Virus record (IMG/VR): IMGVR_UViG_3300047510_001668
Location: 62,001 to 126,000 of that record
DNA length: 64,000 nucleotides
Origin: a virus
Reading direction: 5' to 3' (one strand)
Shown: positions 11,884-46,777 of the stretch, piece after piece
How the letters are laid out: each line of letters begins with the position of its first letter
Position numbering within the stretch: the first letter of the stretch is position 1
Translations under genes and position numbers: made by a program
The notes under the pieces: model-generated
What the model saw: the letters and a program-made list of their open reading frames with translations, nothing else
Told to the model about the DNA's origin: nothing
Database searches by the model: none

Positions 11884-12798
11884 TTAATCTTCAGCCAATT
11901 TACTGAAGTAACTCAAAGTGTCATCATCATCCTCATCAGGACCAGATGACTTGGGAGCTGCTGGCTTGGCAGCTCGTGGCATAGGAGCCTCTGCCACAGG
12001 TTCAGCTTCCATGCGACTCTCGGAAATCTTGTCGGCTGACACAGAGCTAGGACCACCCTTCAACACCATGTCCAGCTTCCGCTTCAACTCCTCGTAGCTC
12101 TTGAAGTTCTTGGCATCTGTGAAGTCAGTCAAAGAATGTTGCTGGTTCCAGATGGCTTCAATGGCGCTATCATCCTCGGCAATGGCTGACACAGGTTCAA
12201 ACTCTGACTTGTCATAGTTTCTGTATCCTTCCACATTGCGAATCTTCAACTTGAAGTTGGCACCCTTCCAGAAATCAAATGGATTGGTGGGATCCTCATC
12301 CTCAAACTGAGGTTGCATCACATCCTTAATCTTGTCGAAAATCTTCTTGCCATACTTGTACAAGAACACCTTGCCCTCGTTCTGAGGATTGGCTGAGTCC
12401 TTGATGACCAGAATGTTGCTGATGTACTGAAGCTTACGCTTCTGCTTGCGAGCAATTTCCTTGTTGCTCTCCACACCAGAGTTCCACAACTCGTTGTTCA
12501 ATTCTGACACAGGATCTGGAAGATTCAATGTGGTCAAGCTGTTCTCAATGTACCAACGACCTGAAGGACCTTGGAATCCATGATTCCAGATGCGTACCCA
12601 AGGAAGCTCTTCTCCCTTGGTGGGAGGCAGAAAGCGAATCACGGCATAGCCGTTGCCTGCCTTGTCAACTGCCGGACTCCAGAAACGGTCATCATCACGG
12701 CGTTCAGTTGTGGGCTTTGCAATCTTTTCCACCTCTTTCATGAGGTTATCGAAGTTGCCACGATTCTTGCGTAAATCTGATAGACTACTGAATGACAT
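11884..12798 (-). CDS. 32: Single-stranded DNA-binding protein gp32
   Basis: A 304-residue protein (T4 gp32 has 301). The N-terminus has the basic B-domain (SSLSDLRKNRGNF). The OB-type core includes FWSPAVDKAGNGYAVIRFLPP and the aromatic strand WIRIWNH-like segment. The C-terminus is an acidic A-domain (DEDDDDTL) that recruits partners. The zinc Cys/His cluster of T4 gp32 is not evident. I chose the ATG at 12798, not a longer frame, because it has an AAGGAG site seven bases upstream and gives the family N-terminus. It lies downstream of gp33 and gp59, as in T4. Confidence 0.92.
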   Translation of the reverse strand: MSFSSLSDLRKNRGNFDNLMKEVEKIAKPTTERRDDDRFWSPAVDKAGNGYAVIRFLPPTKGEELPWVRIWNHGFQGPSGRWYIENSLTTLNLPDPVSELNNELWNSGVESNKEIARKQKRKLQYISNILVIKDSANPQNEGKVFLYKYGKKIFDKIKDVMQPQFEDEDPTNPFDFWKGANFKLKIRNVEGYRNYDKSEFEPVSAIAEDDSAIEAIWNQQHSLTDFTDAKNFKSYEELKRKLDMVLKGGPSSVSADKISESRMEAEPVAEAPMPRAAKPAAPKSSGPDEDDDDTLSYFSKLAED

Positions 12799-12814
12799 TG
12801 TGTTTCTCCTTGTA

Positions 12815-12838
12815 TAACGGTGTATGTAACGGTGTATG
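12815..12838 (-). repeat. Two perfect 12-bp tandem repeats in the gp32 leader
   Basis: The unit TAACGGTGTATG (plus strand) occurs twice head to tail, immediately upstream of the gp32 ribosome site. T4 gp32 represses its own translation by binding an unstructured repeated leader next to a pseudoknot, so this is a candidate autoregulatory operator. That role is inferred from position. Confidence 0.55.
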
Positions 12839-12863
12839 GAACGTGTGACCTGCCATGACAAAA

Positions 12864-13046
12864 CTACTCCTCATCAAAATCATTATCAACTACACGATTC
12901 TCTGAATAATAATCATCCTCATCTTCATCATCAAGCATGTCATAGATGGCATTACGATGCTTACCAAATTTGTCCTTGTCTATTTTCTTGGGACGTTTGA
13001 AATCACGATAATCATCCTCATTGTCCCAATCTCGCATTTTACTCAT
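12864..13046 (-). CDS. Small acidic protein between gp59 and gp32
   Basis: A 60-residue, highly charged protein with an Asp/Glu-rich C-terminal half (LDDEDEDDYYSEN) and a basic centre (FKRPKKIDKDKFGKHR). It overlaps the gp59 stop by eight bases and so is translated with the replication proteins. I recognise no domain. A DNA-mimic or gp32/gp59 accessory role is speculation. Confidence 0.6.
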   Translation of the reverse strand: MSKMRDWDNEDDYRDFKRPKKIDKDKFGKHRNAIYDMLDDEDEDDYYSENRVVDNDFDEE

Positions 13047-13620
13047 AGAAAGCCTTGTGTGTAATCATTGAAAATTTATCCTTCTCCACTTTGATGAATG
13101 GTGAGTACTTGTGTATGGTTCGTGAAATGGAATTCCAAACTGGATCCAACACCAGCTGTTCATCCACCTCTGTAGTAAATTTATATAGTTTATTTAGAAT
13201 CACAAGTGTTTCCAGCCGACATCTTTTACCACAATATTCCCTGACAATCACAGGATGTCCTCGGGAACAATCCCAGGCATCTTCCAGAATGGCAACATTC
13301 ATGGCTAGATTCTTCACATCTTGTGTGTAGGTGTAGGTCAGACTTTCCTGAATTCTTTTCCATTCCATGTAGATTTCTGGACCTGTGTTCTCAAAGATGC
13401 CCCATTCATTACCATTCAGGAAATTGGCCACCAGATAGTTGATGAACTCATCCTGATTGTAATTGTACTGCTTCATCAACACTTCCAACTTCTTCTTGAA
13501 GCTGACCTTCACCCCTGCCTTGGGAGGCCGAGGTGTGATGCCACTTCGGATGTCATAGTTGTCAGTTGTGAAGTGGAGCCGCAAAGAGGTGTAAATCTTG
13601 TAGGCGTCAGAAACATTCAT
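13039..13620 (-). CDS. 59: Helicase loader gp59
   Basis: A 193-residue protein (T4 gp59 has 217). It begins with the family pattern D-A-Y-K-I-Y-T-S-L-R-L-H-F-T-T-D-N-Y-D and continues with F-L-x-G-N-E-W-G-I. gp59 loads the gp41 helicase onto gp32-coated forks. It sits between gp33 and gp32, exactly as in T4, overlapping the gp33 stop codon by four bases. Confidence 0.88.
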   Translation of the reverse strand: MNVSDAYKIYTSLRLHFTTDNYDIRSGITPRPPKAGVKVSFKKKLEVLMKQYNYNQDEFINYLVANFLNGNEWGIFENTGPEIYMEWKRIQESLTYTYTQDVKNLAMNVAILEDAWDCSRGHPVIVREYCGKRCRLETLVILNKLYKFTTEVDEQLVLDPVWNSISRTIHKYSPFIKVEKDKFSMITHKAFYE

Positions 13621-13889
13621 ACAGGAAGTTTGGCAGTCTTTTTCAACAGGTTCATTTCTTCAGCTTCAGCCTGTATCTTGGCCTTCAAGGAACTGGTAAT
13701 CATGGTGGCCACAGCCACAGGTTCTATTCCTTTCTGTTCACAATACTCCAGCAACGCCTCGAAACATCCTATCTTACGTTTGATGGCTTCTTTTTCAATG
13801 TGTATAGAAAACTCTGTGGAACTGGTGAATTCTCGGGTGATGAGATATTCCACTGTGAGTATTTTGGAATCTTCTGGTTCAGCGGTCAT
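13617..13889 (-). CDS. 33: Late transcription coactivator gp33
   Basis: A 90-residue protein (T4 gp33 has 112). The core F-S-I-H-I-E-K-E-A then FEALLEYCEQKGIEPVAVATMI and LKAKIQAEAEEMNLL matches the gp33 family of T4-like phages. gp33 bridges RNA polymerase and the sliding clamp at late promoters. Its presence agrees with the TATAAATA promoters in this window. It overlaps gp59 downstream and the hydrolase gene upstream by four bases. Confidence 0.82.
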   Translation of the reverse strand: MTAEPEDSKILTVEYLITREFTSSTEFSIHIEKEAIKRKIGCFEALLEYCEQKGIEPVAVATMITSSLKAKIQAEAEEMNLLKKTAKLPV

Positions 13890-14374
13890 AATGGCTCATA
13901 AAAAATGTGATTGCCTATTTGTGTGATGGGCTTGGCGAATGTCCAACCAGGCTTCACAGATGTATTATGAAAATACATCGCATTCTTTAGTATAACAACA
14001 TGTGTGTTGTTTGTCAAGACCTCTTTGGCAATTTCATAGGACACTTGATACACGGTGCTGTCGAACGGAGCTTTTGGACCACAGGTCCAGGAGAATTGAC
14101 ATCCTCGGCTGTTCCGTTGATACACCACACCACAAATGGTTTTCGGGAACTGTTTATGTCGGACACGATTCATGGTCACTGTGGCAACTGCCAACTTGCC
14201 ACGGTAGGATTCCATGGGTGCCTCATAGAAAATGTTCTTGGCTAAGCATGTCAATTGCTTCTCATCCAGAACAACTTTTGAAATGGGTTTACGTTCCATC
14301 ACAGGAACTGGATGATAATCTCCCACCAACAACGCCAGCAACATCAACACAATCAAAAATGCATTTCTGAACAT
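13886..14374 (-). CDS. Cell-wall hydrolase, SleB type (endolysin candidate)
   Basis: A 162-residue protein. Residues 1-20 form a hydrophobic signal or signal-anchor segment (FLIVLMLLALLV). The rest is a Hydrolase_2/SleB domain: CLAKNIFYEA, G-K-L-A-V-A-T-V-T-M-N-R-V, FPKTICGVVYQ and CQFSWTC. The family cleaves peptidoglycan glycan strands and the first Glu (in FYEA) is the presumed catalytic acid. The ATG at 14374 follows GGGAGG at ideal spacing. It probably acts in lysis with the holin candidates. A second wall hydrolase, an amidase, is encoded at 20722. Confidence 0.85.
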   Translation of the reverse strand: MFRNAFLIVLMLLALLVGDYHPVPVMERKPISKVVLDEKQLTCLAKNIFYEAPMESYRGKLAVATVTMNRVRHKQFPKTICGVVYQRNSRGCQFSWTCGPKAPFDSTVYQVSYEIAKEVLTNNTHVVILKNAMYFHNTSVKPGWTFAKPITQIGNHIFYEPL

Positions 14375-14404
14375 AGAACCTCCCATGTGAAATGTACATA
14401 ACAA

Positions 14405-14668
14405 GGTGGGGGTTTTCTGTTCCCAGGGAACCCCCGAACCCGGCATGCTACTTAATTAAGCAGCTAATGCAAGAGGCGTATTATATGTGCCTGTTAATGT
14501 TTTTGCTCTGCTTACGGCAGTCGCCTATCGGGTAGCTCTCTCATCTAGTCCTTAACCTGTCGAAACCAGTCATCCCCGAAATGTTTGCTACTGAATGGAG
14601 ATGGAGGGAATCGAACCCTCGTCCAAGCTATGTTTCAATTTGAGCTGTTCTACTACCATCCTACAGAA
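14405..14668 (-). ncRNA. ssrA: Circularly permuted (two-piece) tmRNA
   Basis: On the minus strand the 3' tRNA half comes first: a T-arm with TTCGATT loop ends in CATCTCC plus discriminator A at 14596. After only 18 bases (14595-14578) the 5' half begins with GGGGATG at 14577 and continues ACTGGTTTCGACAGG, the hallmark tmRNA D-loop sequence. GGGGATG and CATCTCC pair as a 7-bp acceptor stem. The tag frame (14506-14456) starts at GCA and encodes AKTLTGTYNTPLALAA then TAA, ending in the classical ALAA degradation signal. The piece order (acceptor half, spacer, coding half) is that of permuted tmRNA genes. Outer boundaries are approximate. CCA is not encoded. tmRNA rescues stalled ribosomes. Confidence 0.92.
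14456..14506 (-). other. tmRNA proteolysis-tag reading frame
   Basis: Resume codon GCA, sixteen sense codons and TAA. The stop lies in a local palindrome (GCTGCTTAATTAAGTAGC) equivalent to tmRNA helix 5. The encoded peptide ends Leu-Ala-Leu-Ala-Ala, the signal read by ClpXP. Confidence 0.9.
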
Positions 14669-15397
14669 CTATTTATGAAACTCTTTGACAGTGATTTTGT
14701 TATCAGCATCAATTAATATAGCTGTCAGATTTTCCACCCAATCACCAGAATTTAAATAGTGAACACCTGCAATTTGTCTATCTTCTGGTTTGTGGATGTG
14801 ACCACAGATAACACCAGAGCAATTGTTTTGTCGTGCGAGATTTGCGGCACCTACTTCAAAGTCTGTGATGTAGTTGACTGCTGCTTTCACCCCATTCTTA
14901 ATATCTTTAGAAATGGAATAGTAAGGAAGTCCTCTCCATGCTCTCCACTTATTATACCAGGTATTCAATCGAAGTGCCAATTCATATCCACTTGCTCCAA
15001 TTTGTGCAATCCACTTCCATTTAGCAACAAATACGTCCAAGATGTCTCCGTGGAAGATGAAATACTTTTTGCCTTCACCGAGGTCAAGGATGTAATTTTC
15101 TTCCACTTGTAACTTGCCGAGATGCATATGCATGAATTCGTGTAAGAACTCATCGTGATTCCCACGTATCCACACCACAGGTATCTTTCTGGAAATGTCT
15201 AATACTTTAGATATCACCTTGGTATGCTTTGCTCTCCAACGAACGCCACGGGACAATGCCCATCCATCCACGAAGTCACCGTTGATAATCAAGATGTCGG
15301 TGTGATGTTCTTCCAGAAACTTCAAGAACTCCACTGCTTTGCAATCTTCTGTTCCTAAATGGACATCTGATACGATAATGGCTTTGTAGTGCTTCAT
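14669..15397 (-). CDS. Calcineurin-like metallophosphoesterase, LpxH-related
   Basis: A 242-residue enzyme with the complete two-metal motif set: D-x-H (SDVHLG, residues 10-15), GD-x-x-D-G (NGDFVDG), GNHD (WIRGNHDE), HGD (FIFHGD) and GHIH near the C-terminus. The layout and W-rich middle resemble UDP-2,3-diacylglucosamine hydrolases, lipid A enzymes of Gram-negative bacteria. It could alter host surface lipid or serve as another phosphodiesterase. It is downstream of a glycosyltransferase, which supports a surface-modification idea. Confidence 0.75.
   Translation of the reverse strand: MKHYKAIIVSDVHLGTEDCKAVEFLKFLEEHHTDILIINGDFVDGWALSRGVRWRAKHTKVISKVLDISRKIPVVWIRGNHDEFLHEFMHMHLGKLQVEENYILDLGEGKKYFIFHGDILDVFVAKWKWIAQIGASGYELALRLNTWYNKWRAWRGLPYYSISKDIKNGVKAAVNYITDFEVGAANLARQNNCSGVICGHIHKPEDRQIAGVHYLNSGDWVENLTAILIDADNKITVKEFHK
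14670..14677 (-). promoter_or_regulatory. Variant late promoter (CATAAATA) upstream of tmRNA
   Basis: CATAAATA on the minus strand overlaps the end of the phosphoesterase gene and sits directly before the acceptor half of the tmRNA. One mismatch from the T4 late consensus; the role is inferred. Confidence 0.35.
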
Positions 15398-15398: not shown

Positions 15399-16106
15399 TT
15401 AATTCCAGTAATTCACTTTCGCCTTCTCAAAGTGCTTAAGGTTGTTTCTATTCAAGAAGTTGACTATCATGTACCAAATCATTCCAAGATAACCTAGTTT
15501 CTTGAACCTGCGTTCATCTTGTCCAAAGTAATGGTCCACAATCATAAACTTCTTGGCATCATACTGTTTACTCAATATGTAATCTTCGGATGTATCATAT
15601 TTGTTTGGAAATCCACCAAGCTCATCAAACTTGTCTTTTCTGGTCAAAAAGAATGCTCCGATGGCAAATGGAGTTTTCTTGGTCATGATTTTGTTGATGA
15701 GATTGAAACACCAGAAGAAGAACGAGGCACGAAGATGTTCACCGTAATTCTTAATGTTGGCTGTTATCAAGTCCAAATTATATACCACCATCTTGTTTAC
15801 CGCATCATAGATGGTGAAGGGATGAAACAACCTCACATCAGCATCCAAAAACAGAATGTATGGAGTAGTTACCAACTTGGCACCGTTGTTTCTTCCTACA
15901 GATACCGGTCCTCCTGTAATCACTTCAATATTCAACACATCATCATACAATTTCACCACCGAGATAGTATTATCGGTACTATAGGCATCTGCGACAATGA
16001 TACGAGTGTTTCCGATACCCACTTGTTGTGACAAAGAATCAAGTAGATGTCCAATATATTTTTCTTCATTCTTGCAGGGGATGATGATGGTGACTAAATC
16101 TTTCAT
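15399..16106 (-). CDS. Family 2 glycosyltransferase
   Basis: A 235-residue GT-A enzyme: N-terminal VTIIIPCKNEE nucleotide-sugar motif, D-A-Y-S-T-D-N-T, and a D-x-D-like LFLDADVRL metal site near residue 95, then the acceptor region (GAFFLTRKDKFDELGGF and E-D). A hydrophobic stretch near residues 128-140 may touch the membrane. It could glycosylate phage DNA, virion or host surface. Pairing with the phosphoesterase, one base away, points to host envelope sugars, but this is inference. Confidence 0.82.
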   Translation of the reverse strand: MKDLVTIIIPCKNEEKYIGHLLDSLSQQVGIGNTRIIVADAYSTDNTISVVKLYDDVLNIEVITGGPVSVGRNNGAKLVTTPYILFLDADVRLFHPFTIYDAVNKMVVYNLDLITANIKNYGEHLRASFFFWCFNLINKIMTKKTPFAIGAFFLTRKDKFDELGGFPNKYDTSEDYILSKQYDAKKFMIVDHYFGQDERRFKKLGYLGMIWYMIVNFLNRNNLKHFEKAKVNYWN

Positions 16107-16762
16107 TTCATGACCTCGTACACATCTCGGTAGTAAAGTAGTTGTTCCACGTGATGGTCTCTTTTACTTTGAAACACTTGCATGAATCCATCGGATACTG
16201 CAATTAAAATGGTAAGTCGGTTCACAGGTATACCAGTGCGTTCTTCAAACATGATGGCGTAGGCTGTTGCTTGCATGAAGTAGTGTTGAATATGTTCCGC
16301 ATCTTTTTCACGCCGGGCTGTCTTGAAGTCTATGATATTTAGTTTCCCATCAAATTCTGCCACACAATCCACACGGCCGGCCAATCTTAAATGATGAGAC
16401 CACAGCGCCACTTCTTGTGCTCGAATGTTGTCAATTCTATCCAACACAGGATTGGCCACTTTGAACATTTCATAATCCCAAAGTGACAAATCACCCCCTG
16501 TCAGATTGTTTTGAAGATACTTTTCCGTGATGGTGTGAAATCTAGTACCCCAATTGGCAGCTTGCCGAGACACCTTGTTTGCTTCTTCTTCACCCACACG
16601 GGCTCGCCATTCTTGAATGCCTTTCTTGGTGTGTTCAGCCAACACCGTGGTGACAGATGGATAGAGCCTACCTTCAGGTGTCTGATAGGCTCTGGTTCCA
16701 TCTTCCTGGTTCACAGCAGAAATGGTTTCTATTGTTACTGGGTCATGTAGGAATGTTTTCAT
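16103..16762 (-). CDS. PD-(D/E)XK exonuclease
   Basis: A 219-residue nuclease. The catalytic core is LAGRVDCVAEFDGKLNIIDFKTARR: G-x-x-D followed by I-I-D-F-K-T, the PD-(D/E)XK motif of RecB-type and phage exonucleases, with a later Q-x-x-x-Y-A helix (QATAYAIMFEE). An N-terminal YPSVTTVLAE segment is typical of this phage family. It probably recycles host DNA or takes part in recombination. An ATG (16762) and a GTG three bases upstream both lie within a few bases of the -10 box of the promoter, so the mRNA may be leaderless. Confidence 0.8.
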   Translation of the reverse strand: MKTFLHDPVTIETISAVNQEDGTRAYQTPEGRLYPSVTTVLAEHTKKGIQEWRARVGEEEANKVSRQAANWGTRFHTITEKYLQNNLTGGDLSLWDYEMFKVANPVLDRIDNIRAQEVALWSHHLRLAGRVDCVAEFDGKLNIIDFKTARREKDAEHIQHYFMQATAYAIMFEERTGIPVNRLTILIAVSDGFMQVFQSKRDHHVEQLLYYRDVYEVMK

Positions 16763-16768
16763 CACAAT

Positions 16769-16797
16769 AATATATCACACTGCTATAATTTTGTCAA
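16769..16797 (-). promoter_or_regulatory. Sigma-70 type early promoter
   Basis: Minus strand: TTGACA, 17-base spacer, TATATT. It reads into the exonuclease, glycosyltransferase and phosphoesterase genes. The -10 box ends only six bases before the exonuclease ATG. Confidence 0.85.
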
Positions 16798-17549
16798 GCC
16801 ACAGCCATGTCCTCACACGCCATTCTGGCCAGGATGTATTCTTTCACCAAGGGTCCACGAACAATGTCCTCCACCCCAAATTCCACATGACGGAAGGAAG
16901 GCATGTGGTTGGCGATGGCCATGAACTTCTTCAATCCTGACATATCAGAACGTTTCTGTAAATCTGTTTGACGGAAATCACCACAGAAAATGATTTTGGT
17001 GTTTTGTCCCACACGGGTCATGATGCTGTTCAGTTCCATGTCATTCATGTTCTGAGCCTCGTCCACAATCACAATACAGTTGTCCAAGGTCAACCCACGA
17101 ACATAGGAAGTGACCATGAAATGAATCAAACTTTGTTCTTTCAGTTTGTTGTAGGCGCGTTCTCCAAATCTAGGGAACAAATCTGCGCAAATTTCTTGAT
17201 AGGGTTGTGAATACACTTCCACTTTTTCTTTTTCATTGCCAGGAAGAAATCCAATATCCCGAGATGGCACTGCTGAACGAACCACCACTACTCTTTTGTA
17301 ACCTGAATTTTCCAAAATCTCTTTGAAAGCGCTGTGCATGGCGATGTAGGTTTTTCCTGTCCCTGCCACTCCATGACATAGAATGGCTTTGTGTCCTTTA
17401 CGATAGTAGTTGAAAAAATTCTCCTGGTTTTCTGTGAGAGCCCAGATTTCTTTTAAATCTGAACCACGGACTTTGTGTTTGGATTCCTGATCCTCTTGAA
17501 GAATATAAGTTTGGGACGTGACCAACTTAAGGCGCTTTTTTCTGGACAT
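16794..17549 (-). CDS. phoH: PhoH-like P-loop ATPase
   Basis: A 251-residue PhoH-family protein: Walker A GVAGTGKTY, then VVRSAVPSRDIGFLPG (the PhoH signature), Walker B CIVIVDEAQN and a sensor motif IIFCGDFRQTD. PhoH proteins are common in phages and have RNA helicase/nuclease-associated roles that are not settled. I chose the ATG at 17549 because a rho-independent terminator lies immediately upstream and would fall inside a longer frame. No good promoter is visible between that terminator and the start. Confidence 0.88.
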   Translation of the reverse strand: MSRKKRLKLVTSQTYILQEDQESKHKVRGSDLKEIWALTENQENFFNYYRKGHKAILCHGVAGTGKTYIAMHSAFKEILENSGYKRVVVVRSAVPSRDIGFLPGNEKEKVEVYSQPYQEICADLFPRFGERAYNKLKEQSLIHFMVTSYVRGLTLDNCIVIVDEAQNMNDMELNSIMTRVGQNTKIIFCGDFRQTDLQKRSDMSGLKKFMAIANHMPSFRHVEFGVEDIVRGPLVKEYILARMACEDMAVA

Positions 17550-17572
17550 AGAATGCTCGTTGGGTTGGGGGT

Positions 17573-17610
17573 AAAAAAATCCCGCCAAGGCCGAAGCCCG
17601 GACGGGATTT
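17573..17610 (-). terminator. Rho-independent terminator after the FmdB-like gene
   Basis: Minus strand: AAATCCCG, inner stem GGGC-TTCG-GCC, CGGGATTT, then a T run. It follows the stop of the 17629 gene and precedes PhoH. Confidence 0.88.
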
Positions 17611-17628
17611 GAATAGGACGGAGAGTCC

Positions 17629-17895
17629 TTAGATGTAACTACTGTTGTTTTTAAGTGTGGAGCCTGGAGTTTTATCATGAATCTTTTGTAAGACCTCTCT
17701 GAATCCATTATCGGGTCGTCTAATTCCTAGACGAACAGGGTCACCGAGGGTTGGCGCAGTCAACATCACCTTCTTGACTGCCATTTCACCACAGTTAGAA
17801 CATGGGTCACCCTCCGGTTCGTGCATGGAAGAGATACTTACATTTCTTGTGAAATAGTGCTCACACTTCTCACATTGGTATTCATATGTTGGCAT
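17629..17895 (-). CDS. FmdB-type zinc-ribbon protein
   Basis: An 88-residue protein beginning MPTYEYQCEKC and continuing to C-S-N-C-G-E, two CxxC knuckles of the FmdB/CxxC_CxxC_SSSS family. The C-terminal half is unstructured. Such small zinc ribbons are widespread in T4-like phages and are presumed transcription or nucleic-acid regulators. A GATAAATA element resembling a weak late promoter lies a few bases upstream. Confidence 0.8.
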   Translation of the reverse strand: MPTYEYQCEKCEHYFTRNVSISSMHEPEGDPCSNCGEMAVKKVMLTAPTLGDPVRLGIRRPDNGFREVLQKIHDKTPGSTLKNNSSYI

Positions 17896-19469: not shown

Positions 19470-20489
19470 TCAACGAATGGTGTAATTTTCCAAACTGGTG
19501 TTCAATTGTCTGTTCACTTGTATGAATTGTGCCTTGTGAGTCATTTCAGACACGTTGTTGGCACCAATATAGGCACAAGTGGAACGAATTCCTCCCAAAA
19601 TGTCAGAAATGGTGTGTTCCACCAGGCCCTTGTACGGGATTTGCACCACTCTACCTTCAGAAGCACGATATTTCTTCACTTGATTGTGTCGCTGTTGGGC
19701 TGCATGACTGCTCATCCCGTAAAAAGTGACTTTTCCATCACGAATTTCCTGTTCCGACTCATCATGACCGGCAAAAATACTGCCGGCCATCACCATTTTG
19801 GCTCCCACAGCTAAAGCTTTTGAGAAATCTCCGGGAAAAACACATCCTCCATCACTTTGCACCCCACCTCCCACCTCTTCAGCGGCAGGAACACACTCCA
19901 TGAGGGCGGAAAATTGAGGATATCCCACACCTGCCACACGCCGAGTGGTGCAAACAGCGCCAGTCCCGATGCCAACCCGAGCCAAATCAGCTCCAGATGT
20001 GATGCAACGTTGAACTGCTTCAGGTGTCACCACGGTTCCTGCCATGATGAAGGCATCTGGAACACATTCTCTGACCTTTTCAATGAAATCATAGAAAGAA
20101 TTCATGTATCCATTAGCCACATCAATGACAATTTTCGGTGTGAAGTTGGAAATTCTGTCCTTCCAGGTACTAATAATGGCATCTGCTTGGTTCAATTCAC
20201 CATCATTCATGCCAATGGTGATGAACGCATGGCTGACATCCTGTTGATGTACCCAATCTGCCAAGGTGTGATGCTTGGTGATGGCAGTAAATGCACCGAA
20301 TTTCTTCAAGGCATGATGCATGCTGAACGTCCCCACACCATCCATGTTGGCAGCAATCACAGGAACGCCAGTGATGGATGCTCCCCAACGACCTGAAATT
20401 GTTGTGGACACATCCACCTGGCTTCTGGAAGTGATATCCGAGAAATGTGGAACTATCAACACATCATTGAAATCCAACTTCACCGACAT
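19470..20489 (-). CDS. guaC: GMP reductase
   Basis: A 339-residue IMPDH/GMPR-family barrel. The catalytic loop is RVGIGTGAVCTTR with the active Cys; the phosphate loops are SDGGCVFPGDFSKAL and an MAGSIFAG segment; the flap motif is FYGMSSHAA, which is typical of GMP reductase. No CBS domains are present. The enzyme converts GMP to IMP with NADPH. Its place in a phage, near a PurA-family gene, suggests purine rebalancing for DNA synthesis. Start ATG follows AAGGCATAATCC. Confidence 0.9.
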   Translation of the reverse strand: MSVKLDFNDVLIVPHFSDITSRSQVDVSTTISGRWGASITGVPVIAANMDGVGTFSMHHALKKFGAFTAITKHHTLADWVHQQDVSHAFITIGMNDGELNQADAIISTWKDRISNFTPKIVIDVANGYMNSFYDFIEKVRECVPDAFIMAGTVVTPEAVQRCITSGADLARVGIGTGAVCTTRRVAGVGYPQFSALMECVPAAEEVGGGVQSDGGCVFPGDFSKALAVGAKMVMAGSIFAGHDESEQEIRDGKVTFYGMSSHAAQQRHNQVKKYRASEGRVVQIPYKGLVEHTISDILGGIRSTCAYIGANNVSEMTHKAQFIQVNRQLNTSLENYTIR

Positions 20490-22778: not shown

Positions 22779-23017
22779 GCCCTCTTAATCATGTTGTTCC
22801 AACTGACATCAAAAATGAAATACAACAATGTCTTGCCGAAAAATTCAAATGCCGACACTCCTATACTTATACCAAGATTCTGTGTCACCACCAGGGTGAG
22901 AAGAAATGTGATGCTCACGGAATAGAAGCGATAGATTATCGCCTTGGCCAACAACACACGATTGCTCAAATAGCGTTGGCTCAGAAACAAACGAATGGTT
23001 GCCTTCAGCCTTCTCAT
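22775..23017 (-). CDS. DUF2061-like membrane protein
   Basis: An 80-residue protein with two hydrophobic helices. The pattern R-V-L-L-A-K-A-I-I-Y-R-F then SITFLLTLVVT and a C-terminal F-x-K-T-L-L-Y-F-I-F-D-V-S-W-N fits DUF2061, an inner-membrane family. I chose the ATG at 23017 because it overlaps the purA stop as ATGA; a longer frame into purA is less likely. Function unknown. Confidence 0.68.
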   Translation of the reverse strand: MRRLKATIRLFLSQRYLSNRVLLAKAIIYRFYSVSITFLLTLVVTQNLGISIGVSAFEFFGKTLLYFIFDVSWNNMIKRA

Positions 23018-24042
23018 ACCTGCTCCGGACTGGTGGACCAGGTGATGGAATGCAATTCTGGACGATAATGCCATCGAATGGTGTCTTCCACAAATCTCTT
23101 GAATTGTGTTAGGGTGTCGAACAGATGGCGTGTGCCTCGAAACACCACACCAAACTTTCCCACCTGTTCCATGACATCCACTTTGTTGATGATGAGGTCT
23201 GTGACATCATTGATGTACATGGCTTGAATCACACCATCCAGATGCATCCAACGCACCTGACGCTTTCTGCCTGTAGTGGCACCAAACTCCTGGCCTGCTT
23301 CCTGAATCTTGTCCAGCACCTCCTGGTCACCTTTGTCATTGAATGTCTTGAATCCAGAATAGGTTTCATAGGCCTTCATCACACCATACACCTTTCTCCA
23401 GGTTCTGGGAGGGATGCCATTCAACGCCACGGCACCTGAGGTGCAATGTGAGCTGGTGACATAGGGATAATCACCCCAATCAATGTCAATCTGAAATCCC
23501 TGAGCTCCTTCACACAACACCGTCATCTCACGGTTGTCACCATGAAAATAGCTGTAGGTGTCAATCATGTCATAGGGAATGTCCCAGCTGTTGTATTTCA
23601 ACACCTCTTTGATTCTGGTGCCAGTTCTGCCATACTTGTCACGATAGGTGGGCCCAATCCCTTGTCGAGTGGTGCCAATCTTGGTGTCTGTGCCATCTTC
23701 CTGAAGGTGTTTGTCCTGAGTGACATGGCATCTGGCATCCACCATCATGGGAGCTGAGAATCCCAGCTTCTCCAGCATCTCCAGTTCCTCACGAAGCTTG
23801 GGAAGATGCACCACACAGCCAATGCCAATCACGCTGGGGATGTTGTAGAACACACCCACAGGCACCTGATGAGTCACCACCTTCTGCCCTTGGTGATAGA
23901 TGGTGTGGCCAGCGTTGGCGCCGCCATTGTATCGGAGCACCGCATCATAGTTGTTGTTCTTGGCCAACCAATGAGCCACTTTACCTTTGCCAGTGTCTCC
24001 TGCCTGGAGATCCACCACAATGTCTGCATGACGAATCATCAT
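23014..24042 (-). CDS. Adenylosuccinate synthetase family enzyme (PurA or PurZ-like)
   Basis: A 342-residue member of the PurA family (E. coli PurA 432; phage PurZ about 350). Visible motifs: P-loop QAGDTGKGK near residue 14, NGGANAGHTIYHQG, IGTTRQGIGPTYRDK, VLCEGAQGFQIDIDWGDYPYVT, and the aspartate-binding GATTGRKRQVRW. The P-loop keeps the Asp that serves as base in PurA. As I recall it is Ser in the PurZ enzymes that make 2-aminoadenine, so IMP to adenylosuccinate is the safer call. The short length and phage setting leave PurZ open. Overlaps neighbours by four bases on both sides. Confidence 0.85.
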   Translation of the reverse strand: MMIRHADIVVDLQAGDTGKGKVAHWLAKNNNYDAVLRYNGGANAGHTIYHQGQKVVTHQVPVGVFYNIPSVIGIGCVVHLPKLREELEMLEKLGFSAPMMVDARCHVTQDKHLQEDGTDTKIGTTRQGIGPTYRDKYGRTGTRIKEVLKYNSWDIPYDMIDTYSYFHGDNREMTVLCEGAQGFQIDIDWGDYPYVTSSHCTSGAVALNGIPPRTWRKVYGVMKAYETYSGFKTFNDKGDQEVLDKIQEAGQEFGATTGRKRQVRWMHLDGVIQAMYINDVTDLIINKVDVMEQVGKFGVVFRGTRHLFDTLTQFKRFVEDTIRWHYRPELHSITWSTSPEQV

Positions 24043-36259: not shown

Positions 36260-37030
36260 TTACAGTGGTATAGACGCCGCTGTCAAGAAGATGCGATAGT
36301 TATCAGAACTATGGTCTTTGGCATCACCTGTAATAGTGTTGATAAGACTCCGAGGACTTGCCAATCCCAACAACTTTAATGGATTAAAGGTGCGTTCATA
36401 ATTCAATGTGGCAACACCTTTATCATTAATATGATGCATGGTGCCGCAATGATAGAACATAGGAGCAAAAGGAATCTTGGTGACAATATCACCATCATTC
36501 ACCCAACGATGATGTTCAAATGGCAAGGTATTGAAAAAGTTCACAAACTTTCTGTTACCTACCCGAGGACTACCATAGGTGAATAATGCTGTAGGAGTAG
36601 GTGTTAAATCATACGTGGCAAACCGATAGGCCATGATGGTGGCCATGGCAGCACCTAAGCTATGTCCTGTGAACCACACATTCTTTTCTGTTTTCTTCAC
36701 ATCCACACCACGTGTCAGAATGGGAGCCCACACCTTATCCACATAATGATTGAATCCAATATGAATTTTACCTACACGTGCATCCGTCTTGGAAATACTT
36801 AAATCTGCCTTGATGTCGGCAATTTGCTTCACTTCTGTACCACGGCATGCCACAATCATGTCTGTATCATTTTCCAACACAAAGGCGTCAGATCCTTTGT
36901 ATCCATAATACATGACATCATAACCTTTCATTCCAAATACAGTGCGAACAGCTTCAGGTTTGTTGTAGACATAGTTGCTGAGTTGAGCAAAAAATGCACT
37001 TTGTTCGATTAGATTCATCTTTTTTATCAT
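36260..37030 (-). CDS. Class 3 lipase (alpha/beta hydrolase)
   Basis: A 256-residue lipase: IVACRGTE oxyanion region, nucleophile elbow WFTGHSLGAAMATIMA (Ser about 138), TYGSPRVGNRKF, catalytic Asp in WVNDGDIVTKIP and His near MHHIND. Similar to fungal class 3 lipases and phage or bacterial relatives. No signal peptide, so it acts in the cytoplasm or is released at lysis. Might degrade host membrane lipid for membrane disruption or fatty-acid release. Last gene of the 44-36 kb late operon. Confidence 0.85.
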   Translation of the reverse strand: MIKKMNLIEQSAFFAQLSNYVYNKPEAVRTVFGMKGYDVMYYGYKGSDAFVLENDTDMIVACRGTEVKQIADIKADLSISKTDARVGKIHIGFNHYVDKVWAPILTRGVDVKKTEKNVWFTGHSLGAAMATIMAYRFATYDLTPTPTALFTYGSPRVGNRKFVNFFNTLPFEHHRWVNDGDIVTKIPFAPMFYHCGTMHHINDKGVATLNYERTFNPLKLLGLASPRSLINTITGDAKDHSSDNYRIFLTAASIPL

Positions 37031-38370
37031 AGCGTCATCCTTGATCCTACGAGTAGGAAGTTTAAAGGTTTTTGATTTTGTACCATCATCACACGATGAG
37101 CAATGGTGGCGCCGAAACGTTTTGTGACTTTGTAATCTAATGAATTACCCACCATCATGCTAGTGGCTTTGTTGGTGACTAATTTGGTCATGTCACTATA
37201 TGATACAGGACTTGCCATCACAAAGAATTGTGGTGATAGCACCATGCGTTCATTCAATGTGATGGGGGGATGCATCCAGAAGCCTACCAGACTTGTGGCA
37301 TAGCTGGTGCCACCATCAGGCATGAACAAGGCAATCATACCGCCACTGATGCCTGCCACACCCCAACGAGGGCTTGGCTTTACATATGTATATCCCACCA
37401 AGGTCATCTTGGTGCCTTTCAAATAGGCTGCTGTGGCAGAATGGCTGCTGATGCTTGACAACTTACCTTTTTTGAAATTCATTTTGGTGTAACTGCCTGA
37501 TACAGCAGCTTGATCCAATGTGGTCCAGATGATGGCTGTACCACCATAACTCTTGTCGCCTGCCAAACTGCTTTGTGACACACCCACTGTGAATAATGCT
37601 GTCAAACTACCATCAGGGTTCTGTCCTGCTGTCAAGTCTGATGCCACCATGATGGGATTCACAGCCTCGGATTTCTTTTTCTCTTCCTTCTTTTCTTCTT
37701 TTTTCTCTTCGGACTTTTCTTCAGACTTGCTTTCAGACTTGCTTTCTTCTGATTTGCTTTCTGATTTAGTTTCTGAGGAAGATTCTGACTTGGCTTCGGT
37801 CTTGGTTTCTGTGGGCTTGGATTCACTACTACTGGAGCTGGCAGGTGCTGGTTCTGATGAGGAACTGCTAGGAGCAGGAGTAGAGCTGCTGCTGGATGGA
37901 GCAGGTGTTGCTGGAGCTGGGGGAGGAGGTGTGCTTGTGGCTGCTGATGTGGCAGCCGAGCCCGCAGCACTGCTTGCTGCTGAACTGGCTGCACTACTGG
38001 CTGCTGATGATGCAGCGGCACTGGCAGCTGATGATGCGGCGGCAGTAGCGGCGGCCGTGGCAGCTTGTGTTGCCACTGTGGTAGTGGTTTGTGTCACCAC
38101 AGGATTGTTCGCAACAGGACAAGGCACAGTGGCAGTAACCTGTGCCACCCATGCCTGTAGTTCTCCTGCTTGTGCCTGTTGTGCCGTGAATACTTTAGAT
38201 GCTCCACGATACATCACCATGACACCCACATTACTCAAAGGAAATGTAGCTGTTTGTACTGTATTAGTACACGGATCCACCCAAGTTTGTACCACAACTT
38301 GGGCCTTACCACAGCTTGTGGCTGTGAACAACAGAACAGCTAATGCCGTAGCAAGATATCTCATTTTCAT
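37027..38370 (-). CDS. Secreted/lipoprotein with Ala-Ser and Ser-Glu-Lys low-complexity stalk
   Basis: A 447-residue protein. Residues 1-20 are a signal peptide ending in a Cys (TATSCG), a possible lipobox. Residues 25-90 form a small Cys-containing domain. Residues about 95-150 are almost only Ala, Ser and Thr; 150-185 Pro/Ser; 185-235 Ser/Glu/Lys. Residues 240-447 are a beta-rich domain (VNPIMVASDLTAGQNPDG, then SVVGFW-like strands). It looks like a surface domain on a flexible stalk. No family recognised. Confidence 0.7.
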   Translation of the reverse strand: MKMRYLATALAVLLFTATSCGKAQVVVQTWVDPCTNTVQTATFPLSNVGVMVMYRGASKVFTAQQAQAGELQAWVAQVTATVPCPVANNPVVTQTTTTVATQAATAAATAAASSAASAAASSAASSAASSAASSAAGSAATSAATSTPPPPAPATPAPSSSSSTPAPSSSSSEPAPASSSSSESKPTETKTEAKSESSSETKSESKSEESKSESKSEEKSEEKKEEKKEEKKKSEAVNPIMVASDLTAGQNPDGSLTALFTVGVSQSSLAGDKSYGGTAIIWTTLDQAAVSGSYTKMNFKKGKLSSISSHSATAAYLKGTKMTLVGYTYVKPSPRWGVAGISGGMIALFMPDGGTSYATSLVGFWMHPPITLNERMVLSPQFFVMASPVSYSDMTKLVTNKATSMMVGNSLDYKVTKRFGATIAHRVMMVQNQKPLNFLLVGSRMTL

Positions 38371-41691: not shown

Positions 41692-42069
41692 CTAATGTTT
41701 AATGATAACGGGCACCTTGGTCATGTTGCCATTAGTGTCCATAAGGGTTAAATCGTAGGAACCATTGGCAATCTTGGTGTAGTCCAATGTTTTCTCTACG
41801 GTGCTGCCACCTGCTGTGAAGCCATGATTATCTACCATCTCACCTTTGATGTTCACCAATTGAAGCGTGTACATGGCTCCTGGTGTGACATCCAATGTTA
41901 CTTTTACTTTATCACTTACTGTCATTGATGAAAGACTTACAATTTTTGTTGAAGCTGATTCACGACCCAGATAGGTTTCATCAATGAATTTTGGGTTGGT
42001 GATGTAATTCGTATCAAAACATCCTACACAAAGAATAACAATTACTGAGTACTGGATGAGTTTTTTCAT
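41692..42069 (-). CDS. Lipoprotein with one beta-sandwich domain (125 aa)
   Basis: A 125-residue protein with a lipobox (VILCVGC, Cys 17). The rest is a single Ig-like or sorting-type beta domain with TLDYTKIANGSYDLTLMDTNG near the end, reminiscent of C-terminal domains of exported proteins. Its start overlaps the stop of the large dockerin/cohesin-like protein, so the two are made together. Confidence 0.68.
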   Translation of the reverse strand: MKKLIQYSVIVILCVGCFDTNYITNPKFIDETYLGRESASTKIVSLSSMTVSDKVKVTLDVTPGAMYTLQLVNIKGEMVDNHGFTAGGSTVEKTLDYTKIANGSYDLTLMDTNGNMTKVPVIIKH

Positions 42070-44105
42070 GGATTCCGGAAGAAGTTTGCACCAATGAGCT
42101 TGATGACGGTGGTGTTGAGATTGACGCCTACTTGATTTCCTTTGTCATCAGCAGCATCCATGGTGGGACGAATTAGAACAGAAGTGTTCAGATCCACACC
42201 TGGTTGCAATGCTGAGAAATGTAACTTGAAAGGTACAAGGTTTTGTCCTGTCATGGTGTTTTTCAACTCACGGTCAAGAGCACCAAATCTAACAACATTA
42301 CCCATGGGATGAACAAATGACACCCAGCTTGGTGTGTTGATGTCCATTTTTTCAAACTTCACTTTTGTTGCATCATATTCCACTTCAAATTGCAATCCTG
42401 TCAACTTCAATGTCTTGGTGTCCACAGTGAATGGGATGGCAATGGTGTTGCCTGTCACCACAACATTGTTCAACTGCACATCTATGCTTTGTCCGCTAGG
42501 AACTATTAGATTACCCCATTCGTAGATAGCTGCTTGTTGTTCTGTGACCAATGAAGAATGTGATAGATTCACATCACCCTTCAATGCGTAACGAAGGTCA
42601 AGGGTTTGTTCACTTGTAGTGGTTCGTGCGTGAACGTATCCTGATGTTTTATTACTGAACTTTGCATTGATGCGAAGTGCGTAATCTACATTTTGATTAT
42701 TGACATTTCTAATATTATTATTGAATACTGATGTGCCATTTGTTACTTTGGTGAAACTTGACGCAATCTTATAGAATGCCCAACTTGCATCACTTGACAT
42801 AAAGGTGACAGGTCCGTTATACACATCAAGAATATTCATCCACTTCACAGATGAAGGTGTGACCCCTGCTGGGAATTCACGCATATCCACATAGAATCTG
42901 GATTGACCTGCACCATATCCGTTCAAATTGATGATGGCATATTCCACTTCACCTGGAATGATATCAATAGTTTTGCCTGTCATCAAATCATTCCAATTGG
43001 TCAATGGTGTGTTGTCGTAATCTGCACCGTGGAACAATGGAATACTGATACTACAATTTGCTGCACAACCTGCTGGTGGTGCCATAATGGTATCCAATCC
43101 AGTTACGGCGTTGAATAACACTTGAACATCCCCACCATCAAATACACCATCGTTATTGACATCTGCTGCCCAATACTTCATACCCTTGTTGATGTTGTTG
43201 TTCTTGAATGTCTTATCAAGATTTTGGGTAATCCATTCTTGTTGTGCTGCTGTAAAGTCAGAGATAGTGGTTGCTGCCAAACTTAGTGGTGCTAAACTAT
43301 CTGCTGGTAATACCAATCGGAACTTGTATGGTGAGTTCACTTGCAGTTGTTGTGCAAAAGCAAATTGCCCATTACCACCCACCGCTGCATTAGCAACTTC
43401 TGTGGGTTGTGCCAATGTATCGGTAATAGACAACCGCATCAAATTTTTCAATCCTGCGGTAGTATTTGCACTATGTTTTACTTCACCGACAATCAAGTTG
43501 TTTGCGTTAGGTGCTAAATCAATCCACACACCTTTTGCCCCAACATTTTCTGTATTAGTCATGGTTTGACCATTCACATCATACCCAACAGCAAAGTTCA
43601 TGTATACGGAATCGTATGGGAACCCTGCGTCCGTCTTGGTGATTCTGAAACGGAGTTTGATGTAAGTCGCGTGTTCCATGTTGGCGGCACTGGACACATT
43701 CACTTGGATACGATTGATGGCATGATACGGAACTGTAGTTTGATTACAGGTGTATTGTGCGTATTGATAGTTGGTCCAACCATTTGTTGTGGTATTTTGT
43801 GTTGTTCTGTTGAACTTACAATTTGGATAATAGTAGTTGGTGTAGGTGAAGTTTGCAGCTTGTGGAATACCTGCACCTGGCTGTACATCTAATAATGTGA
43901 TGGCATCCTTTTGATGCTGGAAATCAAAGAACACAGAACGAATGGTAGTGAAGTTGGGGTTCAACTTCACTTCCAAAGAAATTGTATCGTTTTTAGCGAT
44001 AGCACCACCATTAACATTTGTATTAATAGTATTACTGCCCCACCATAGGGCAGGTTGAGCCTGTAGTGCAATTGGCACCAACAGGAGTGCTAGAAATCTG
44101 TACAT
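42066..44105 (-). CDS. Large exported protein with dockerin-like and cohesin-like segments
   Basis: A 679-residue protein. Signal peptide YRFLALLLVPIALQAQ. Residues about 310-335 have ADVNNDGVFDGGDVQVLFNA, a dockerin/EF-hand calcium loop, and a second partial one is near LKGDVNLS. Residues about 560-670 resemble a cohesin beta-sandwich (LTGLQFEVEYDATKVKFEKM, VVRFGALD). Such modules normally mediate extracellular complex assembly. The ATG at 44105 with GGAGTAAT is preferred to a longer frame. Late operon. Confidence 0.7.
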   Translation of the reverse strand: MYRFLALLLVPIALQAQPALWWGSNTINTNVNGGAIAKNDTISLEVKLNPNFTTIRSVFFDFQHQKDAITLLDVQPGAGIPQAANFTYTNYYYPNCKFNRTTQNTTTNGWTNYQYAQYTCNQTTVPYHAINRIQVNVSSAANMEHATYIKLRFRITKTDAGFPYDSVYMNFAVGYDVNGQTMTNTENVGAKGVWIDLAPNANNLIVGEVKHSANTTAGLKNLMRLSITDTLAQPTEVANAAVGGNGQFAFAQQLQVNSPYKFRLVLPADSLAPLSLAATTISDFTAAQQEWITQNLDKTFKNNNINKGMKYWAADVNNDGVFDGGDVQVLFNAVTGLDTIMAPPAGCAANCSISIPLFHGADYDNTPLTNWNDLMTGKTIDIIPGEVEYAIINLNGYGAGQSRFYVDMREFPAGVTPSSVKWMNILDVYNGPVTFMSSDASWAFYKIASSFTKVTNGTSVFNNNIRNVNNQNVDYALRINAKFSNKTSGYVHARTTTSEQTLDLRYALKGDVNLSHSSLVTEQQAAIYEWGNLIVPSGQSIDVQLNNVVVTGNTIAIPFTVDTKTLKLTGLQFEVEYDATKVKFEKMDINTPSWVSFVHPMGNVVRFGALDRELKNTMTGQNLVPFKLHFSALQPGVDLNTSVLIRPTMDAADDKGNQVGVNLNTTVIKLIGANFFRNP

Positions 44106-44106
44106 A

Positions 44107-44589
44107 TTACTCCGTGAGTTTAGTGATGAGGGCAATGCTGGACTTCTTCAATGCATTGCTTAAGCTCGTTTGATTGAACTTGCCGCCATTATCAATGATT
44201 AATGTTGACATGGACACTTCACTGGAACTTTCCTCCACAACAACTTCCTTCACTTTTTTGCCGTTCATCATCAGAGTACCCTTCATACGAATCACCACTG
44301 CCTCATCCCGCTTCTGAATGATGGACACGTTCTTCTTGGTGGTGAGCACATCCAGAAAGATGATTTCCACCTTCAACTTCAAAGGGGCTTCTTCAGTCAA
44401 TTCATATTCTTGTTCTAATAGGGCTTCTTCCAAGATGTTCTTCACGCCGAATTCCAAATTACGATTGCCAGCTACTGGACCAATCATCACCTTGTTTTCT
44501 ACTTTTTCCACACTGATTTTCTTTTCTGCGTTCAAAGGCATGATGGTCATCATGCTGTTCATAACGATACCCAGAATCATGGATATCAT
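44107..44589 (-). CDS. Exported CsgG-related protein (160 aa)
   Basis: A 160-residue protein with a hydrophobic N-terminus and a body of the LpoB/CsgG type (VMIGPVAGNRNLEFGVKN, then LKVEIIFLDVLTTKKN and a C-terminal NQTSLSNALKKSSIALITK that parallels the other CsgG-like protein). First gene after the TATAAATA promoter at 44670. A GGAGACTAGCA site precedes the ATG. Confidence 0.55.
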   Translation of the reverse strand: MISMILGIVMNSMMTIMPLNAEKKISVEKVENKVMIGPVAGNRNLEFGVKNILEEALLEQEYELTEEAPLKLKVEIIFLDVLTTKKNVSIIQKRDEAVVIRMKGTLMMNGKKVKEVVVEESSSEVSMSTLIIDNGGKFNQTSLSNALKKSSIALITKLTE

Positions 44590-45264: not shown

Positions 45265-45280
45265 ACATCCTCCTGAGTGA

Positions 45281-45352
45281 CGGGCCCACTAGGACTCGAA
45301 CCTAGAACGACGGTTTTGGAGACCGCTGTGTTACCAATTACACCATGAACCC
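45281..45352 (-). tRNA. tRNA-Trp (CCA)
   Basis: Cloverleaf: acceptor GGGTTCA / TGGGCCC, T-loop TTCGAGT, anticodon loop CTCCAAA giving CCA. Discriminator G. First (most distal) gene of the tRNA array. Confidence 0.92.
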
Positions 45353-45353
45353 A

Positions 45354-45428
45354 AGGGCGAGGCGGGATTCGAACCCGCGGTTTTAGAGTTTTGCAGACTC
45401 TTGCATTGGGCCACTCTGCCACCCGCCC
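45354..45428 (-). tRNA. tRNA-Cys (GCA)
   Basis: Acceptor GGGCGGG / CTCGCCC, T-loop TTCGAAT, anticodon loop CTGCAAA giving GCA. Confidence 0.92.
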
Positions 45429-45434
45429 GTATGC

Positions 45435-45587
45435 TTATCTATATTGCTCTGTGGCCATGGCTTTCTGAATGTCTCCTCCTTGTAGAGGATCCTCAGATGA
45501 TGAGCGGGTCAAGGTGAAGGCAAAAATTAAAAAAATCACCAAAGCAATAAATGAAATGATGTTAGGTAAGTTATCTTTGTTTTCCAT
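45435..45587 (-). CDS. Single-pass membrane protein inside the tRNA array (50 aa)
   Basis: A 50-residue protein with one transmembrane helix (IISFIALVIFLIFAFTL) and a polar tail. The ATG at 45587 has a GGAGGATGT site. It lies between tRNA-Cys and tRNA-Pro. Function unknown. Confidence 0.62.
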   Translation of the reverse strand: MENKDNLPNIISFIALVIFLIFAFTLTRSSSEDPLQGGDIQKAMATEQYR

Positions 45588-45604
45588 ACATCCTCCTGTA
45601 GAAG

Positions 45605-45677
45605 TCGAGGAGACAGGACTCGAACCTGCGACATCCTGCTCCCAAAGCAGGCACTCTACCAACTGAGCTACTCCTCG
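45605..45677 (-). tRNA. tRNA-Pro (TGG)
   Basis: Acceptor CGAGGAG / CTCCTCG, T-loop TTCGAGT, anticodon loop TTTGGGA giving TGG. Confidence 0.93.
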
Positions 45678-45685
45678 ATGATTGT

Positions 45686-45713
45686 AATATACAACATTTC
45701 TTTCATTTGTCAA
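45686..45713 (-). promoter_or_regulatory. Sigma-70 type promoter inside the tRNA array
   Basis: Minus strand: TTGACA, 16-base spacer, TATATT, between tRNA-Arg(ACG) and tRNA-Pro. It can express tRNA-Pro, Cys, Trp and the small genes down to 44678. Confidence 0.75.
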
Positions 45714-45716
45714 GCA

Positions 45717-45790
45717 CGCGCCTGAAAGGATTCGAACCTATAACCTTCTGATCCGTAGTCAGATGCTCTATCCAGTTGAGCTACAAGCGC
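45717..45790 (-). tRNA. tRNA-Arg (ACG)
   Basis: Acceptor GCGCTTG / CAGGCGC, anticodon loop CTACGGA giving ACG (read as ICG after editing). T-stem has one mismatch. Confidence 0.9.
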
Positions 45791-45794
45791 CTGA

Positions 45795-45867
<73 letters not shown>

Positions 45868-45869
45868 AG

Positions 45870-45944
45870 GGTGACTGACGGGATTCGAACCCGCGACCCT
45901 CGGAACCACAATCCGATGCTCTAACCAGCTGAGCTACAATCACC
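45870..45944 (-). tRNA. tRNA-His (GTG)
   Basis: Acceptor GTGATTG / CAGTCAC with the extra G(-1) opposite C73 that marks tRNA-His. Anticodon loop TTGTGGT. Confidence 0.93.
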
Positions 45945-45948
45945 ATGG

Positions 45949-46022
45949 AGTCCTTGGCGAGACTTGAACTCACAACCCGCTCCTTAGGACGGAGCCGCTC
46001 TATCCAGTTGAGCTACAAGGAC
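45949..46022 (-). tRNA. tRNA-Arg (CCT)
   Basis: Acceptor GTCCTTG / CAAGGAC, anticodon loop GTCCTAA giving CCT. Confidence 0.92.
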
Positions 46023-46023
46023 A

Positions 46024-46113
46024 CGGACAGAGAGGGATTCGAACCCTCGGTACAGCTTTTGACCGTACGGCGGTTTAGCAAACCGCTGCCTTAAGCCTCT
46101 CGGCCATCTGTCC
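46024..46113 (-). tRNA. tRNA-Ser (GCT)
   Basis: Class II tRNA with a long variable arm. Acceptor GGACAGA / TCTGTCC, anticodon loop TTGCTAA giving GCT. Confidence 0.93.
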
Positions 46114-46115
46114 AA

Positions 46116-46189
46116 CGCTCCTGGAGGGACTCGAACCCCCAACCCACTGAGTAGAAATCAGTTGCGCTATCCAATTACGCCACAAGAGC
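46116..46189 (-). tRNA. tRNA-Arg (TCT)
   Basis: Acceptor GCTCTTG / CAGGAGC, anticodon loop TTTCTAC giving TCT. Confidence 0.92.
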
Positions 46190-46192
46190 AAG

Positions 46193-46266
46193 TACACCAG
46201 GCTAGAGTTGAACTAGCGACCCCCGGTGTATCAGACCGGTGCTCTAACCAGCTGAGCTACTGGTGT
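46193..46266 (-). tRNA. tRNA-Ile (GAT)
   Basis: Acceptor ACACCAG / CTGGTGT, anticodon loop CTGATAC giving GAT. Confidence 0.92.
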
Positions 46267-46269
46267 GTA

Positions 46270-46353
46270 TGGGAGTGGAAGGATTCGAACCTACTAGGCC
46301 TATTGGCGACAGATTTACAGTCTGTTGTAGTCCTCCAGCTCTACAGCACTCCC
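46270..46353 (-). tRNA. tRNA-Tyr (GTA)
   Basis: Class II tRNA with long variable arm. Acceptor GGGAGTG / CACTCCC, anticodon loop CTGTAAA giving GTA. Confidence 0.93.
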
Positions 46354-46533
46354 CTACTTCAGTTCCTCTACTTCTATCATGATGTTGCCACGTGCACCTA
46401 CAGAAGGCCAAAAAGCAATATCAAATTTATTGAAATCCAATTTTCCTAATGCTTCTTCCACACTAGTGACGGCTTCTTTTCTTGTGGTGTACTTACCTGG
46501 GACTGGAATGCCGTTATACTTTACAATGAACAT
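46354..46533 (-). CDS. Small protein within the tRNA array (59 aa)
   Basis: A 59-residue protein, MFIVKYNGIPVPGKYTTRKE, then VEEALGKLDFNKFD. GGAGACATC precedes the ATG. The stop touches the 5' end of tRNA-Tyr. Function unknown. Confidence 0.62.
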   Translation of the reverse strand: MFIVKYNGIPVPGKYTTRKEAVTSVEEALGKLDFNKFDIAFWPSVGARGNIMIEVEELK

Positions 46534-46548
46534 GATGTCTCCTTGTGA

Positions 46549-46622: not shown

Positions 46623-46624
46623 AA

Positions 46625-46773: not shown

Positions 46774-46777
46774 ATGG

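Follow-up and report, generated by a model that had tools for sequence, protein, structure and literature searches.

A circularly permuted two-piece tmRNA with a diverged tag in a T4-like phage and its relatives

The window, a 64,000-nucleotide stretch of a viral record of 177,878 bases, carries on its minus strand (~14408-14664) a circularly permuted (two-piece) tmRNA. Genes for gp32, gp59, ligase, baseplate wedge, tail-tube cap, hub-lysozyme, PhoH and ribonucleotide reductase are present in the record, and its gp32, gp59, baseplate genes, PhoH and gp33-like coactivator identify it, by gene content, as a T4-like phage. By gp32, the annotated isolates that come closest (~50-57% identity) are Melnitz along with T4-like cyanophages and pelagiphages. 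The tmRNA gene, its parts and its neighbours are as follows.

16794-17708, minus strand: PhoH-like gene, conserved upstream neighbour
16103-16765, minus strand: exonuclease, conserved upstream neighbour
14669-15397, minus strand: calcineurin-like metallophosphoesterase, immediately upstream
14670-14677, minus strand: T4-type late promoter motif CATAAATA, consensus match, predicted promoter
14408-14664, minus strand: permuted tmRNA gene, from the predicted late-promoter +1 to the end of the 3' hairpin (inferred ends)
14596-14657, minus strand: acceptor piece (3' half), CCA not encoded
14652-14657, minus strand: P2 strand of the acceptor piece
14604-14620, minus strand: T arm
14597-14603, minus strand: acceptor strand CATCTCC
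14596, minus strand: discriminator A
14578-14595, minus strand: intervening segment, 18 nt, predicted to be cut out
14408-14577, minus strand: coding piece (5' half), including the tag ORF and the 3' hairpin
14571-14577, minus strand: acceptor strand GGGGATG of the coding piece
14531-14536, minus strand: P2 strand of the coding piece
14456-14491, minus strand: tag frame GGC ACA TAT AAT ACG CCT CTT GCA TTA GCT GCT TAA, encoding GTYNTPLALAA and a stop
14408-14435, minus strand: hairpin/pseudoknot arm GGGGGTT-CCCTGGGAACAGAA-AACCCCC, 3' of the tag
13886-14374, minus strand: endolysin / cell wall hydrolase, next downstream (start corrected from 14446)
13620-13814, minus strand: gp33-like late transcription coactivator (42% identity to Melnitz gp33, E=3.3e-11)
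13039-13620, minus strand: gp59 helicase loader
11884-12861, minus strand: gp32 ssDNA-binding protein

Is this a genuine tmRNA? ARAGORN called a permuted tmRNA (tmRNA*) at 14365-14685 on the minus strand, and two Rfam covariance models matched over their complete length: RF04321 (tmRNA_permuted, which merges the alpha, beta and cyano tmRNA models; PMC11915505) at 14456-14657 with 112.7 bits (E=3.5e-21, model positions 1-213; gathering score 47), and RF01850 (beta_tmRNA) at 14388-14726 with 97.7 bits (E=2e-28, model positions 1-331; gathering score 84). The scores settle the existence of the tmRNA gene and bear out the initial annotation, which had placed a permuted tmRNA here from the letters alone and had proposed an Infernal search with Rfam tmRNA models. 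Its description of the layout was likewise accurate: the acceptor half lies upstream of the 5' half with exactly 18 nt between them, and the acceptor stem GGGGATG/CATCTCC is paired at 7/7 positions. The T arm is paired at 5/5. Both elements form in a plain fold of the sequence; the energy of this fold is unexceptional (z=-1.26), minimum free energy being uninformative here. The acceptor stem carries a G3-U70 pair, the identity pair for alanyl-tRNA synthetase.

To which type does the RNA belong? The beta_tmRNA score exceeds its gathering score by a modest margin (97.7 vs 84), and for the close phage relatives L096 and L088 the alpha model, not beta, scores best. Placing the tmRNA of this phage clade in the betaproteobacterial type RF01850 is thus a weak assignment, and the clade is divergent. 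A search of viral contigs with the exact T-arm and acceptor DNA gave no match; a looser pattern spanning both halves found 9. Two tmRNAs (L005/L007, loci L098/L095), in which CAGGTTTCGAC replaces CTGGTTTCGAC, are missed by ARAGORN and found by RF04321, and phage tmRNAs may accordingly be undercounted.

Covarying stems in the relatives provide evidence for a real tmRNA that is independent of model scores. Across 32 loci the acceptor stem takes five forms (GGGGATG, GGGGGTG, GGGGCTG, GGGCCTG and GGGCCAG), all paired 7/7 with exact partners; two-sided changes occur at positions 4, 5 and 6, and G3-U70 is invariant in all distinct sequences. In shuffle tests, which ignore the relatedness of the sequences, the ten distinct acceptor-stem combinations form 70/70 pairs, against 58.4 +/- 2.8 (maximum 68) when partners were shuffled 5000 times. 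The P2 helix that joins the two pieces forms 59/60 pairs, against 48.9 +/- 2.3 (maximum 58), and several of its positions show double changes; its strands were chosen as best-pairing candidates, which favours pairing, a milder bias than that of the 3' hairpin, whose 105/112 pairs against 55.7 are biased upward by selection of the best-pairing stretch. The stem of this hairpin is variable, with the loop AACAGAA retained in most relatives, and the intervening segment ranges from 6 to 155 nt.

What does the coding piece specify? The tag is 11 residues long, GTYNTPLALAA, with GGC as resume codon; the aligned codon in relatives is GGC, GAC or GCA/GCC. The initial annotation had read a longer tag, AKTLTGTYNTPLALAA, which includes an extra AKTLT upstream of the resume codon. 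Such a 16-residue tag was rejected: the upstream frame is open, yet the aligned resume codon is GGC. The frame, with its hydrophobic AA degron end and stop, is kept in relatives. Within the group of GTY-type tags (five distinct sequences, a small sample), 24 of 46 codon differences fall at third positions, and the frame, the PLALAA end and the stop are all intact. In line with the initial suggestion of a tag that differs from the host's, it is unlike those of the sampled bacteria (ANDE/ANDD type). The LAA end is a known signal for ClpXP and alone is enough for ClpX; its retention throughout the clade argues for degradation of the tagged fragments. The E. coli adaptor SspB binds the AND.. front of the tag, and loss of this front suggests, speculatively, an altered use of adaptors. 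Tags of other T4-like phages vary as well: ANDNSYRMVA in L105-L107, ANDDYFSQDFKLAA in L104 and ANDDSYTVRIAA in L002/L111 end unusually (in RMVA or RIAA) or are longer.

To define the spread of the RNA, 80 viral contigs were selected by gp32. RF04321 matches 27 of them, 26 above cut-off, many of those without a match being short. In contigs with enough sequence, the tmRNA follows the exonuclease and precedes lysin-gp59-gp32; in the window, two extra genes (glycosyltransferase-like and phosphoesterase) separate exonuclease and tmRNA. In an RNA tree, the window is monophyletic with L085, L086, L088-L090, L093, L096, L097, L113, L114, L116 and L119 (support 1.00), and this derived clade forms a long, phage-only branch. 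Those members that were recovered through gp32 are the records with at least 76% identity to the window, and records at 69% or below carry the other kind of tmRNA; that the gp32 split matches clade membership fits vertical inheritance. The clade's tags are GTYNTPLALAA, GTYNAPLALAA, GAYNAPLALAA, GTNNMPLALAA, DNNYMSFATSYALAA, DNSYMSYANSYALAA, DNSYMSNANSYALAA and GNQYGSYMSSGYALAA, rather than ANDE..ALAA; in all, the AND(E/D) start is gone and LAA is kept, and the clade's genes encode no CCA. The tree places the viral contig L118 with a bacterial tmRNA.

The idea that close relatives lack the gene had to be rejected in part: L008-like contigs end before the locus, and L030-L032 (gp32 73-75%) are truly without it. 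In these three the exonuclease adjoins the lysin with no tmRNA between them, and two of the records (65 and 119 kb) have no tmRNA anywhere. The gene is therefore dispensable or replaceable.

The predicted promoter directly upstream, CATAAATA, is one base off the T4-type late consensus TATAAATA (C, not T, at the first base). With T4 geometry, +1 would fall on G14664, the conserved G of GUAGGAUGG. In every tabulated record of the derived clade, [T/G/C]ATAAATA lies 54-57 nt before the T arm, the relatives carrying TATAAATA or GATAAATA at this near-fixed spacing; L086, outside the motif table, has the one-base variant ACTAAATAA. By chance, ATAAATA would turn up in any one 15-nt stretch with probability 0.002. 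The window holds 17 occurrences on both strands together, 9 of them lying no more than 70 nt ahead of an ATG-initiated frame that is 50 codons or longer. Since the upstream genes differ among relatives, motif and RNA travel together. Most tmRNA records of the other kind are without the motif; ATAAATA is found upstream in Melnitz, L094 and L103. The gp33-like gene lies two genes downstream of the tmRNA, and the late box together with this coactivator suggests late expression. For Melnitz, an early promoter and early action were proposed from a sigma-70 prediction (PMC9004378). Despite this assignment, the Melnitz locus (L110, 5985-6437) has the late-type motif TATAAATA just before the tmRNA.

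How much of this is new? A survey of 18,146 genomes reported 133 unique phage tmRNAs, 53 of them predicted to be two-piece, and 50 of these from marine or aquatic phages (PMC9004378). A permuted tmRNA in a T4-type phage, which the initial annotation expected to be notable, is already on record for Melnitz and other aquatic phages (PMC9004378) and for Mendera and Marzo. Melnitz, a Methylophilales phage, and Pelagibacter myophages are likewise T4-like aquatic phages with two-piece tmRNA (PMC9004378). The annotated order in Melnitz, PhoH-exonuclease-tmRNA-gp33-gp59-thyX-gp32, places the tmRNA as in the window, and the upstream motif is shared. Unlike the window, which scores best with the beta model, Melnitz matches the alpha model best (106.7 bits); it also has the tag ANDNYVPVDYALAA, an encoded CCA and a glutamine riboswitch on the 3' side. 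The Stenotrophomonas phages Mendera and Marzo (Menderavirus) are T4-like isolates with a permuted RNA that matches beta_tmRNA, but their gene occupies another locus, inside a tRNA cluster near nrdA, with an encoded CCA and a tag ending in ANDDSYTVRIAA. Betaproteobacterial ssrA (RF01850; L120-L124) shares the permuted order, P2 and the T arm, and bacterial L120 even has the same acceptor stem; however, the bacterial tags are ANDEQFAIAA, ANDERFALAA and similar, and L120 has no ATAAATA upstream and reaches 298 bits with the beta model, far above the 97.7 of the window. The two-piece tmRNA itself is thus mostly known, and the interest lies in the divergent tags and in the late motif. New here is a monophyletic phage clade with non-ANDE tags, no encoded CCA and a late promoter motif at near-fixed spacing; neither the derived tag clade nor its late promoter motif is reported in the open-licence papers that we searched, which falls short of proving novelty.

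Does the phage supply its own trans-translation machinery? Searches of the 177,878-base record, possibly incomplete, turned up neither SmpB nor SspB, so host partners would be needed. The 'self-supplied rescue and degradation system' suggested at the outset finds no support in this record, and the tag keeps LAA, the signal for host ClpXP. Nor does the tmRNA sit with the 29 tRNA genes, as had been stated: these lie ~30 kb away at 45279-49770 on the minus strand. They cover all 20 amino acids, and with their 3' ends read, no encoded CCA was seen after the discriminator in any of them; this nearly self-sufficient tRNA set would depend on a CCA-adding enzyme. An order-wide search for a host through bacterial relatives, centred on one MAG match (Rhodocyclaceae), named none and returned mostly standard tmRNAs, only four being clearly permuted.

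Other cargo on the minus strand includes an adenylosuccinate synthetase-like gene (23014-24042; PF00709; PHROG '2-aminooxy adenylosuccinate synthetase', 2.8e-67) and an IMP dehydrogenase/GMP reductase gene (19470-20489; PF00478), together a possible purine-modification (2-aminoadenine, PurZ-like) pathway. A class 3 lipase domain protein (36260-37030; PF01764, 2.6e-24) is unusual for a T4-like phage, and two large ORFs, 42066-44135 (689 aa) and 37027-38370 (447 aa), have no PHROG or Pfam match.

Building on the gene, its pairing and conservation, the tag frame, the motif and the synteny, all of which are seen directly, we consider it likely that this is a working permuted two-piece tmRNA of a T4-like aquatic phage, inherited within the phage lineage and serving late, host-assisted ribosome rescue and tagging for ClpXP. 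That it is functional is very probable. Transcription, cutting, charging, tagging, timing and proteolysis we infer by analogy with the established biology of bacterial two-piece tmRNA. The precursor would start at the late promoter, and host tRNA-processing enzymes would cleave it into acceptor and coding pieces, which the acceptor stem and P2 would hold together. Host enzymes would then add CCA and charge the RNA with alanine, guided by G3-U70. The charged RNA, together with host SmpB, would go into ribosomes that have stalled on cut or stopless mRNA, extend the nascent chain by Ala and GTYNTPLALAA and release the ribosome, and the LAA end would route the tagged fragment to host ClpXP. Such an RNA would help most in the late phase of infection, with a large share of mRNA cut and host tmRNA limiting.

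Could the gene instead be a captured bacterial ssrA or a relic of an integration site, without function in the phage? Its patchy occurrence, in 26 of 80 gp32-related records above cut-off (many others being short fragments), and the clustering of viral contig L118 with bacterial tmRNA would fit such a passenger; but the compensated stem changes, the constant genome position, the phage-type promoter motif and the intact folding and coding of the RNAs on a long phage-only branch make this the most improbable of the readings considered. A prophage-site fragment is likewise not favoured, given the synteny and the promoter motif. Another reading is that the RNA blocks host trans-translation by occupying SmpB, AlaRS or ribosomes. 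The endogenous tmRNA of E. coli is inhibited by a phage DS6A tmRNA that has no tag (summarised in PMC11915505), and the clade tags have departed from the host form; a decoy, however, needs neither tag frame nor stop nor C-terminal LAA, all of which selection has kept, and we regard this role as very unlikely.

A related question is whether tagged proteins are destroyed quickly at all. The tag might mainly free ribosomes, with loss of the SspB-recognised AND.. front slowing host degradation: all clade tags are without the AND(E/D) start, and no phage SspB was found. Against this, LAA by itself suffices for ClpX, and what is known of SspB contacts comes from E. coli, from which the host adaptor here may differ; slow destruction seems very unlikely, if marginally less so than a decoy. 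We also put forward, tentatively and as a possibility we ourselves rather doubt, that the clade turned a captured host tmRNA into a late phage version whose new tags (GTYNTPLALAA, GAYNAPLALAA, DNNYMSFATSYALAA, GNQYGSYMSSGYALAA) escape SspB-like host adaptors.

If so, ribosome rescue late in infection would be uncoupled from the way the host normally controls turnover of tagged proteins. The literature offers a range of proposed roles for phage tmRNA, from the upkeep of hijacked translation to an early-infection recycling of host proteins; from the late promoter motif, action late in infection is expected, contrary to the early-action idea for Melnitz. Because the clade tag can be distinguished from bacterial tags by mass spectrometry, tagged proteins and their timing would be readable, and the differing tags of this single lineage offer natural variants for testing residues besides LAA. 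Diverged tags and a late motif thus make the role of a phage tmRNA testable.
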